From assembly GCF_031456835.1 (NCBI RefSeq), contig NZ_JAVDVK010000001.1:3348001-3412000 (forward strand): a stretch of 64,000 nt of DNA. Reading direction: 5' to 3'. Below are positions 17,803 to 64,000 of the stretch, in pieces. Position 1 is the first letter of the stretch, and each line of letters starts with the position of its first letter. Origin of the DNA: Leifsonia shinshuensis (GTDB lineage: Bacteria > Actinomycetota > Actinomycetes > Actinomycetales > Microbacteriaceae). The position numbers were made by a program, and so were the translations under genes. The notes below the pieces were generated by a model that did no database searches, had not been told where the DNA came from, and saw nothing but the letters and a program-made list of their open reading frames with translations.

Positions 17803-18810
17803 TCATCGGGTGCTCCCGCGGATGGTGAGCTCCGGTGCGATGAACCTCGTCACCGGAGCTCCAGCGAGCTCGGGCGACGTGATCCGGCGCACCAGTTGCC
17901 GGACCGCGTTCTGGCCCAGCTGATCGGGCGAGCTCTCCACCGCCGTGTAGGGCAGGGAGAACGCTCGACCGAAGTCTTTGGAGTAGAGGCTGACCACGGA
18001 CAGGTCGGCGGGCACCCGGGTGCCGCGGGCGGCGAGCACGGAGGGGAGCGCAGCGATCGTGGCGTCGTTGTGGACGATCAGCGCCGTCGCGGTGGGCCGC
18101 GCATCCAGGATCGCGTTGACGCTCTGGCCGATGGCCGGCTGCTGCGCCTCGCCGAAGTACGGGTGCATCTGGATGCCGTAGCGGGCCGCCCGCTCGAGGG
18201 CCGCATCCCGGAACCGCCAGCCGTACGCTCCGCCGCGCTCGAACACATGCTTGGGAGGCGACACCACGATGATCTCGCGGTGGCCGAGCCCGTACAGGTG
18301 GTCGACGAGGATGCGCGCCGACTCCCCGAAGTCGAGGTCGAAGACGTCGAGGCCCTCGGTGCGCTTGGGAAGGCCGACCAGGGCTCCCGGCTGCGAGGCG
18401 GCACGGAGCGTGTCGAGGCGCGGGTCGTCGTGGACGACGTCGAGCAGGACGACGCCGTCGACCATCCCGGCGCTCGTCACCCGGCGGAGTGCGGCCGTGG
18501 CGTCGATCTCGGTGACCAGCAGGATGTCGTAGCCGAACTCGCGGGCGGTGTCCGACACCGGGAGCACGTACTGGAGCATCGCGGGGGCGAACTCGTCCTG
18601 GTGGAACTGCGTGAGCAGCCCGATCACCATGGTCTGCGACGTGGCGAGGGCGCGGGCGCCCGCGTTGGCGGTGAATCCGAGGGCCGAGATCGCTTCGTCA
18701 ATGCGCGCCCGGGTGGACGGCGAGATGGACCGCTTGCCCGAAAGCGCGTACGAGACGGTGCTCGGGGACACGCCCGCGTGGCGGGCGACGTCTGTGATCG
18801 TGATCGCCAC
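17803..18810 (-). CDS. LacI-family repressor of the CUT1/GH127 operon
   Basis: The 335-residue protein has an N-terminal HTH (ITDVARHAGVSPSTVSYALSGKR) with hinge helix ANAGARALA, then a periplasmic-binding-like sensor domain (residues 60-335). The GTG at 18810 is chosen because GAGGAGG sits five bases before it; another GTG two codons upstream overlaps that site. The promoter just upstream carries two TCGAANCGGTTCGA-type palindromes, one on each side, so it very likely represses itself and the importer/hydrolase genes downstream. It is closely similar to the LacI gene at 19413. Confidence 0.92.
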   Translation of the reverse strand: MAITITDVARHAGVSPSTVSYALSGKRSISPSTRARIDEAISALGFTANAGARALATSQTMVIGLLTQFHQDEFAPAMLQYVLPVSDTAREFGYDILLVTEIDATAALRRVTSAGMVDGVVLLDVVHDDPRLDTLRAASQPGALVGLPKRTEGLDVFDLDFGESARILVDHLYGLGHREIIVVSPPKHVFERGGAYGWRFRDAALERAARYGIQMHPYFGEAQQPAIGQSVNAILDARPTATALIVHNDATIAALPSVLAARGTRVPADLSVVSLYSKDFGRAFSLPYTAVESSPDQLGQNAVRQLVRRITSPELAGAPVTRFIAPELTIRGSTR

Positions 18811-18834
18811 GGGCACCTCCTCAGGCCGTCATCG

Positions 18835-18894
18835 TCGAACCGGTTCGATCACTGTAGCGCCCTGTCGCGCCCGCCACAAGTCGAAGCGGTTCGA
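18835..18894 (-). promoter_or_regulatory. Promoter with paired LacI operators
   Basis: On the minus strand a -35-like TTGTGG (18874-18879) and a -10-like TACAGT (18851-18856) are 17 bp apart. The palindromes TCGAACCGGTTCGA (18835-18848, perfect) and TCGAAGCGGTTCGA on the plus strand (18881-18894) flank it, one just downstream of -10 and one just upstream of -35. The central CG and palindromic form fit LacI-family sites. The same motif recurs before the LacI paralogue at 19413. Confidence 0.75.
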
Positions 18895-18942
18895 TTGGGG
18901 GATGGGGCCCGTCCTGCGCGCTACCGCGGTGGGCGGTGCTGC

Positions 18943-19379
18943 GATTTGGCACAAATCATGGGAATCTGGCCGCCAAAACCGCGATTTGGCACAAATCTCG
19001 CGGCAAAGGGCGCGTGAGGCGGGGGTCGGTGCGACATTCGTGACGACTGTCGCCTCTGCGGTTACGTCACGCGACATTCGTGACGAATGTCGCCTCCGCG
19101 CCTGCACAACGCGACGTTCGTCACGAATGTCGCCTGAGCGCGCGGCTGAGCGGACCTTCGTGGCAAATGCCGCTGTAACGGAGGGCATCGGTGCGGCTCG
19201 CCGTGGCGGCATTCGTGACGAAAGTCGCGTATGCGCCTGCCTTACGCGACATTCGTGACGAAAGTCGCGTATGCGCCTGCCTTACGCGACATTCGTGACG
19301 AATGTCGGCGGGGGCGCGGGCGACGATTCGTGCCGAATCACGGGCAGCTTCGCCGCAAAGCCGCGATTCGACACGAATC
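18943..19379. repeat. Array of eleven short palindromes at mostly 40-bp steps
   Basis: Units start near 18943, 18983, 19031, 19071, 19111, 19151, 19206, 19246, 19286, 19325 and 19365. The core is a palindrome such as GACATTCGTnACGAATGTC, with variants GATTTGGCACAAATC (first two) and GATTCG-nnn-CGAATC (last two). Measured at the TTCG/TTTG core, spacings are 40, 52, 40, 40, 40, 55, 40, 40, 35 and 40. Arms change in parallel, so pairing is kept. The 40 bp at 19211-19250 are repeated exactly at 19251-19290. It occupies most of the 596-bp gap between two LacI genes. No open frame with coding character is seen. Confidence 0.9.
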
Positions 19380-19412
19380 GCGCCCGGCGCAAAGCGCGCG
19401 GCCGCGCCGCGC

Positions 19413-20429
19413 TCAGGCGACGGGGCGCGTGCTGCCGCGGTCGACCAGTTCCGGCTCGATGAAGCGGACGCGCGGCTCCCCGGCCTCCTCGGGCGAGTGG
19501 ATGCGGCGGATGAGCTGGCGCACCGCCTCCTGCCCGAGACGGTCCGGGGAGGTCTCGGCGGCGGTGTAGGGCAGTGAGAAGGCCTGGCCGAACTCCTGCG
19601 AGAAGACGCCGACCACCGAGAGGTCGTCGGGCACGCGCATCCCCCGCTTGTCGAGGTATGCGGGGAGTGCGGCGATCGTCGCGTCGTTGTGGACCATCAG
19701 TGCGGTGGCGTGGGGGGATGCGGCCAGCGCCGCATCCAGGGAGTCCGTAATCCCCGGCTGCCGCGAGTCGCCCTCGTGGGCGACGAGACGGATCCCGTAG
19801 CGGGCGGCGCGTTCGACGGCGGCGTCGCGGAAGCGCCAGGCGTAGGAGCCGCCGCGCTCGTAGACGTGGCGCGGAGGCGTGATGAGCACGATGTCGCGGT
19901 GCCCGAGGTCGGCGAGGTGGTCGACCACGATCCGCGCAGCCTCTCCGAAGTCGAGGTCGTAGGAGTCGAATCCCTCGCCGTTGCGGGCGTAGCCGATCAG
20001 CACGGCGGGCTGCGGCGCCTCCCGCAGCGGCTCCAGCCGGGAGTCGTCGTAGGTGACGTCGAGCAGCACGACGCCGTCGATCATCGCCGACGACGTGGTG
20101 CGGCGCACGGCGTTGACGCGGTCGGCGTCCGTCACCATCAGCAGGTCGTAGCCGTGCTCGCGCGCGGTGGTGGAGACGGGGAGCACGTACTGCAGCATCG
20201 CGGGGGCGAACTCGTCCTCCTGGAACTGCAGGTACAGCCCGAGCACGTTCGTCTGCGCGGTAGCCAGGGCGCGCGCGCCGGCGTTCGGGGTGAAGCCGAG
20301 CTCGTCGATGGCGGCCTGGATGCGCGTCCTGGTCTCCTCGGAGATGGCGCGTTTTCCGGACAGCGCGTACGAGACGGTGCTGCGCGAGACGCCGGCGACG
20401 CGGGCGACGTCGCCGATGGTCGCTGCCAT
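19413..20429 (-). CDS. LacI-family transcriptional regulator, paralogue of the upstream repressor
   Basis: The 338-residue protein has the HTH IGDVARVAGVSRSTVSYALSGKR and the hinge ANAGARALATAQT, and aligns along its whole length with the LacI at 17803 (shared blocks include the HTH end, QYVLPVS-TAREHGYDLL-, VVDHL, AVERAARYGI and VHNDATIAALP). The ATG has a GAGGAGG site. The near-identical recognition helix fits the finding that the same TCGAANCGGTTCG motif lies upstream of both genes, so the two repressors may cross-regulate. No transporter or enzyme gene adjoins it on its strand, so its own target is unclear. Confidence 0.92.
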   Translation of the reverse strand: MAATIGDVARVAGVSRSTVSYALSGKRAISEETRTRIQAAIDELGFTPNAGARALATAQTNVLGLYLQFQEDEFAPAMLQYVLPVSTTAREHGYDLLMVTDADRVNAVRRTTSSAMIDGVVLLDVTYDDSRLEPLREAPQPAVLIGYARNGEGFDSYDLDFGEAARIVVDHLADLGHRDIVLITPPRHVYERGGSYAWRFRDAAVERAARYGIRLVAHEGDSRQPGITDSLDAALAASPHATALMVHNDATIAALPAYLDKRGMRVPDDLSVVGVFSQEFGQAFSLPYTAAETSPDRLGQEAVRQLIRRIHSPEEAGEPRVRFIEPELVDRGSTRPVA

Positions 20430-63879: not shown

Positions 63880-64000
63880 CCCGGGGCCCGCAGCCGGGGC
63901 ACGCATCCCGTCGCCCCGCGCCCGCGCGCCCCGCCCCCGCGCCGAGCGAACGCCGCCCGCGCGCCCCCGCGCTCCCGCGCCGCGCGAACTGTGAGTTGAT
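63880..64000. other. Right-edge sequence with no recognisable gene
   Basis: The last 121 bases are extremely GC-rich (CCCGCGC runs) and show no frame with a ribosome site. It may be the upstream region or far end of a gene beyond the window. Confidence 0.5.

Follow-up and report, generated by a model that had tools for sequence, protein, structure and literature searches.

A REP/REPIN-like palindrome cluster in Leifsonia and its candidate AbiEi–EDxHD nuclease partner

A dispersed family of palindrome doublets

In the window analysed here, a 64,000-nucleotide stretch of Leifsonia shinshuensis DNA, eleven short palindromes occupy positions 18943–19379, between two genes for LacI-family regulators (Table 1). 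This report concerns that array, the genome-wide family to which it belongs and a nuclease gene that members of the family bracket. A core scan placed the palindromes at successive steps of 40, 52, 40, 40, 40, 55, 40, 40, 35 and 40 bp, bearing out a sequence-only reading of the stretch that had counted eleven palindromes with seven of ten steps at exactly 40 bp. The exact duplication of one 40-bp unit noted there was also confirmed (19210–19249 is identical to 19250–19289). The copy at 19162 is degenerate, with pairing at 5 of 10 arm positions. At nine of ten core letters, no further core was found in the window outside the array, and codon-shuffled windows (20 shuffles) gave 0–3 scattered cores; at a looser threshold of eight of ten, 10 additional cores appeared elsewhere in the window. 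The suggestion that a 40-bp pitch is near four helical turns did not hold, since at 10.5 bp per turn it amounts to 3.8 turns, a non-integral number.

A 17-mer of the core, allowed up to three mismatches, gave 82 forward and 89 reverse matches in the whole genome (control, 1 and 0). The exact cores GATTYG-NNN-CRAATC and CATTYG-NNN-CRAATG, which are mutually exclusive patterns, occur 85 and 72 times, 157 in all. With at least 157 exact cores genome-wide, the array is not the one-off tandem duplication that had been named beforehand as speaking against the sequence-only reading. The unit was defined from 25 places in this genome (24 stretches and the window) and eight more. It is a doublet: two palindromes with centres exactly 40 bp apart and a 17-nt spacer, about 57 bp overall. 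The 40-bp step arises because both halves are palindromes in their own right, with an ATTYG-NNN-CRAAT core. Among core-to-core steps of up to 130 bp in the loci examined, 78 of 121 are exactly 40 bp; the distance from one doublet to the next is variable, most often 33–36 bp, and after 40 the commonest steps are 35, 36 and 34 bp. Forty base pairs is the step within a doublet, which corrects the first reading of a 40-bp phasing. The genome holds two subfamilies, ATTTG (A) and ATTCG (B); TGC/GCA loops in inverted orientation are the rule in subfamily A but do not occur throughout subfamily B. A conserved middle stem in the 17-nt spacer, picked out by eye (TTAT/ATAA, TTCT/AGAA), was rejected on a pairing of 0.45 overall against 0.42 in shuffles. 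Palindromes at a 20-bp pitch, two steps of which make the usual 40 bp, were seen in five species at the LacI locus or at the nuclease locus described below (L121, L124, L126, L127 and L081, L numbers denoting loci); they are a half-period version of the Leifsonia element.

Gene positions were taken from a simple codon-usage gene caller written for this analysis. In a first set, all 28 arrays of the genome were intergenic, 14 between convergent and 14 between codirectional genes, with none divergent. Nine further arrays comprised four convergent, three codirectional and one divergent, and one that overlaps the 3' end of the nuclease gene. Combined, 36 of 37 are intergenic (18 convergent, 17 codirectional, one divergent, one on the nuclease end), and in a relative (G226; G numbers denote sampled genomes, G000 being the genome of the window) all 11 arrays are intergenic, one of them divergent. 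The family thus has the marks of repetitive extragenic palindromic sequences (REPs), being short, palindromic, multicopy and extragenic, and with two inverted copies at a fixed spacer it has that of REP doublets forming hairpins (REPINs). Type-B cores number at least six in 23 of 28 genomes of the genus (range 6 to 337); G251, G252, G259, G261 and G271 have no type-B and 0–1 type-A cores. A control pattern was found 0 times in 27 genomes of the genus and once in G226, and the 244 other genomes of the family have 0–3 cores each, on a par with the control. Of the options that the sequence-only reading had listed, the REP-like one was right in kind, the palindromes being dispersed, intergenic and high-copy across the genus. 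Its exclusion of a CRISPR (clustered regularly interspaced short palindromic repeats) array also stands, given that the repeat arms vary and the spacer is 17 nt. Anatomy and dispersal rule out both this and a simple tandem satellite; a palindromic satellite fails as an account of the whole and survives only in that single exact 40-bp gains or losses occur (G249/G260).

Since both LacI-family neighbours are on the minus strand, the array is downstream of one and upstream of the other. Its position between them is incidental: clear palindromes are present in only four of 12 relatives with the same gene pair (G257, G265, G266 and G268, the last at 20-bp steps) and were not found in the other eight. 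In G125 the gap between the LacI genes (L080, G125:C17:9900-13100) holds three copies of a different inverted-repeat element of about 55 bp (TCTGTAACGAATGCGGGTGCTCG...). Two LacI-operator-like palindromes (TCGAANCGGTTCGA) lie upstream of the first LacI gene, at 18834–18849 and 18880–18895 of the window, and sites resembling TCGAANCGGTTCGA are visible in 12 of 12 syntenic relatives. A GC-rich, short-period tandem repeat occupies the end of the window (63907–63989).

Table 1. Palindromes of the array and the genes on either side, in window coordinates
Feature	Position	Strand	Details
Doublet 1, subfamily A (ATTTG core)	18939..19001	none	centres 18950 and 18990, 40 bp apart
Doublet 2, subfamily B (ATTCG core)	19031..19093	none	centres 19042 and 19082
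Doublet 3, subfamily B, second half degenerate	19111..19173	none	centres 19122 and 19162
Doublet 4, subfamily B	19206..19268	none	centres 19217 and 19257; 40-bp unit repeated exactly
Additional subfamily B palindrome	19286..19308	none	centre 19297, 40 bp past 19257
Last doublet, GATTCG core	19321..19383	none	centres 19332 and 19372
LacI-family regulator gene, flanking, outside the element	17803..18816	-	Pfam LacI, E 1.2e-14
LacI-family regulator gene, flanking, outside the element	19413..20429	-	Pfam LacI, E 5.8e-18; 3' end towards the array

A nuclease gene bracketed by palindromes in Leifsonia

A Y1 transposase of the REP-associated tyrosine transposase (RAYT) type (PF01797) was found in 0 of 28 genomes of the genus, G000 included; a control search matched in 5 of 14 named genomes. 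The elements thus lack the transposase that marks RAYT-associated REPs and REPINs. The check for a REP-associated transposase that the sequence-only reading had proposed came out negative for a RAYT and led to a different partner, an AbiEi–EDxHD nuclease. A search of Rfam returned only microRNA-type and small RNA models, scoring below gathering thresholds.

In G000, G249 and G250, a spacing of about 1 kb between two doublets had suggested an autonomous element, but these places proved to be one orthologous nuclease locus. Its gene order is AMP-binding enzyme, nuclease, epimerase and peptide deformylase. The nuclease, of about 300 residues, has an AbiEi-like domain in its middle and, at the C terminus, an EDxHD/Vsr-fold nuclease domain with the catalytic E, D, H and D, which are invariant. 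The sole Foldseek match with E up to 0.001 was a mitoribosome protein, at a low TM-score. In PMC3710099, MTES_1575 appears as the name of a Vsr-type nuclease domain. No AbiEii (DUF1814) toxin gene was found among the genes identified at the Leifsonia locus, the neighbour that would mark an AbiE toxin–antitoxin system.

We compared this locus across 26 species, which are not independent. Cores stand on both sides of the gene (about 1 kb) in 23 of them, as doublets or 20-bp-pitch trios; among these, G262 and G125 have just one core on one of the sides. At this locus G259 and G261 lack both the nuclease gene and the palindromes, and the two neighbours lie 12–18 bp apart, while G252 carries the gene with no such cores. 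Palindromes occur at the locus only where the gene is present, and the three species without them there lack the repeats genome-wide too. A second nuclease paralogue in G000 (L209, G000:C1:1581500-1585500) has a palindrome of its own, in three copies on one side and one on the other.

Matching palindromes around homologous nucleases

Homologues of the nuclease are present in 168 of 249 genomes of the family, several per genome, and the association of gene and palindrome recurs across many of their lineages. Many loci carry a palindrome of about 57 bp on each side of the gene, the two alike and differing from lineage to lineage. The first set consisted of 30 fetched loci, four named loci and the paralogues L209 (G000) and L229 (G028, from a sampled stretch); L162, truncated by a contig end so that its two flanks overlap, was excluded from the counts, leaving 35. 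A matched pair was defined as the best left and right palindromes with pairing of at least 14/24 and identity of at least 0.65, and the control was 315 genes of 200–500 residues from the G252 and G028 stretches. Matched pairs were found at 25 of 35 loci against 0 of 315 control genes; the Leifsonia locus itself supplies four of the 35, three of which score. Another 20 loci, chosen from the match list before their flanks were inspected, gave 15, so that 40 of 55 nuclease loci in both sets have matched palindromes on both sides. At an identity of at least 0.6 the control rises to 3/315; a stricter palindrome picker at that identity gave 23/35 loci (24/36 with L162) against 0/315. A left–right control that cross-paired flanks had been compromised by close relatives (its 99th percentile lay at 120 bits, which 1 of 34 loci exceeded), and the 315 genes took its place.

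At phylum level, homologues occur in 88 of 296 genomes. A matched pair flanks 14 of 29 loci at an identity of at least 0.6 and 13 at 0.65; one of the 14 repeats a family-level locus (L261 is L173), and 11 lie outside the family, spread over eight other families. Palindrome identity averages 0.63 between loci of different genomes whose proteins are at least 55% identical (15 pairs), 0.47 between same-genome paralogues (19 pairs) and 0.44 between distant pairs (485 pairs).

Dispersed copies were also seen outside the Leifsonia family of repeats. Four copies of a dispersed family with the ends CGAGCACAGG lie in 400 kb of G028, and both palindromes flanking the paralogue L232 share those ends; the right flank of the paralogue L233 is matched by one dispersed CGACTTGAGGC copy. 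That sample holds 18 palindromes at threshold against seven in its codon-shuffled control. In 360 kb of G252 the dispersed palindromes include four copies of one family, and the palindrome TCGTGCG..CGCACGA has 0 copies there. G252, which is without Leifsonia-type repeats, shows several dispersed families of palindromes of about 57 bp (TCGAGTCGGGGATTAATCACGC, CGAGTCCGAACTTGTTGC and TCGTTTGCCACTTGTGGTGG) at L206, L207, L195, L205 and L194. When elements were picked solely by the 9-bp ends CGAGAGTGC and GCACTCTCG, the 249 genomes gave 30 in 11 genomes (control 0), of which 24 are 57 bp long, four are 56 and two are 58. Interior positions pair at 0.72 in the 24 of 57 bp, whereas 2000 half-swaps averaged 0.48 and never exceeded 0.60. 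These elements keep their symmetry while their sequence changes. The Leifsonia element, of comparable length, holds two half-palindromes 40 bp apart.

Interpretation and rival explanations

We propose, with a probability of about 0.6, that the array is a cluster of REP/REPIN-like elements whose partner is the AbiEi–EDxHD nuclease instead of a RAYT. The pairing of nuclease gene and palindrome rests on the genome comparisons and is nearly certain; a functional interaction between the two is probable, and the chances are even that the nuclease drives the spread of the elements. In the mechanism that we envisage, the nuclease, encoded at a separate locus between two copies of the element, would bind the half-palindromes through its AbiEi-like part. 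According to PMC7319586, the promoters of AbiEi antitoxins carry 23-bp inverted repeats to which the antitoxins bind, and PMC3943268 describes dimers of the EDxHD enzyme I-Bth0305I on a target of nearly 60 bp. A nuclease dimer might likewise sit on the element of about 57 bp with its AbiEi-like parts on the two halves, and the fixed 40-bp (or 20+20) geometry would follow because both halves are so occupied. The enzyme would then cut at or beside the element, which might be in duplex, cruciform or single-stranded form, and units could be copied, added or removed as the break is repaired. Copies would build up at tolerated intergenic spots, mostly downstream of genes, and would be homogenised in step with the nuclease of each species.

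Several observations weigh against this proposal. Over about 120 kb aligned, G249 and G260 have six doublet positions in common, which speaks against fast movement, and the one change seen was a gain or loss of 40 bp; a clean recent insertion of a single element was not found in G249/G260 or G265/G266. The arms, which had been said to vary together, do so between the subfamilies (ATTTG/CAAAT against ATTCG/CGAAT) but stay near the column-shuffle level within each: outer-arm pairing in G000 is 0.61 against 0.60 and 0.63 against 0.65 for type A, and 0.59 against 0.54 and 0.58 against 0.51 for type B, none significant, and neither subfamily has spacer covariation beyond shuffles. The nuclease of G252 appears intact, but that genome has neither Leifsonia-type palindromes nor a matched pair, and G264 and G253 keep the repeats although their copy of the gene is split between two frames. 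No matched pair was seen at 15 of the 55 loci examined at family level and 15 of the 29 at phylum level, and most dispersed copies outside Leifsonia were seen in one sampled genome only. As to turnover, one orthologous array differs between G249 and G260 by an exact 40-bp unit together with paired changes in both arms, and a given position can be occupied by subfamily A or B, depending on the species.

One rival account makes the palindromes operators of the nuclease gene, under AbiEi-type autoregulation. The dispersed copies would then be decoys or belong to a wider regulon, maintained because selection acts on the sequence that the protein binds. The AbiEi-like domain in the protein model, the inverted repeats of AbiEi promoters mentioned above (PMC7319586, in part) and the constancy of the arm cores beside drifting spacers would all suit it. 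It nevertheless appears unlikely, as the palindromes flank the gene on both sides, its 3' end included, most dispersed arrays follow genes instead of preceding them (of 37, 18 are convergent and 17 codirectional), which ill suits promoter control, and the number of exact cores ranges from 0 to 337 among congeners. Alternatively, the nuclease gene could have once entered a palindromic target in the manner of a homing gene, the palindromes being its now-protected recognition site and the dispersed copies older targets spread otherwise. The fold match to the homing endonuclease I-Bth0305I, the published target size of nearly 60 bp and the filled and empty sites between the same two neighbour genes are what would be expected; homing genes usually split their site, however, whereas here the palindromes are intact on both sides, and G125 has hundreds of cores in one species, so we hold this quite improbable. 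The arrays are intergenic, convergent genes enclose 18 of the 37, and a stop codon is often tens of base pairs away; this also recalls bidirectional transcription terminators or stabilisers of mRNA 3' ends that multiplied by ordinary duplication, with the nuclease a passenger tolerating such sites. What the elements conserve best is a shared AT-rich core, in a genome that is GC-rich, and not a stable GC stem followed by a run of T, and terminators do not predict nuclease-lineage-specific palindromes around the gene; we regard this as decidedly improbable.

Among known systems, the REP/REPIN elements of RAYTs (TnpA-REP), as partly described in PMC3733652, resemble the Leifsonia elements in being short extragenic palindromes of high copy number with two inverted halves and a fixed spacer, in lying at mostly convergent or codirectional intergenic sites and in flanking a dedicated gene. 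The Leifsonia elements differ in the lack of a Y1 transposase from the 28 genomes, in having an EDxHD/Vsr-fold nuclease as the enzyme and in an element length that, around AbiEi–EDxHD genes, stays near 57 bp across lineages. By eye, none of the GTAG or CGTC tags of the REP superfamilies so named was seen beside Leifsonia stems. CGTC-tagged REPs are likewise palindromic and often head-to-head dimers, and apparently lack a dedicated transposase, but in the sections of PMC3733652 that treat them they are listed mainly from alpha-Proteobacteria, and their tag was not seen by eye in the Leifsonia units. In contrast to EDxHD homing endonucleases such as I-Bth0305I, the Leifsonia nuclease lies outside any intron or intein, is fused to an AbiEi-like part and has intact flanking palindromes; unlike the AbiEi of type IV toxin–antitoxin systems, it carries a C-terminal nuclease and has no AbiEii among the genes identified at its locus. 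In the PMC literature (subscription papers and non-PMC preprints lay outside the scope), we found no description of DUF559, MTES_1575, EDxHD or AbiEi proteins paired with palindromic repeats.

More tentatively, we suggest a general class in Actinomycetota, selfish or domesticated, of AbiEi–EDxHD nucleases that each have their own gene-bracketing palindrome of about 57 bp, copied by cut and repair with no HUH transposase and, in some lineages such as Leifsonia, reaching hundreds of dispersed cores. REP-like repeats that lack any known transposase pose an open question, as the CGTC REPs, apparently without one, illustrate (PMC3733652). Here a RAYT-less repeat family points, through gene neighbourhood alone, to a common uncharacterised nuclease family of the PF18741/PF04480 type, and each such nuclease gains a concrete, lineage-specific candidate target.
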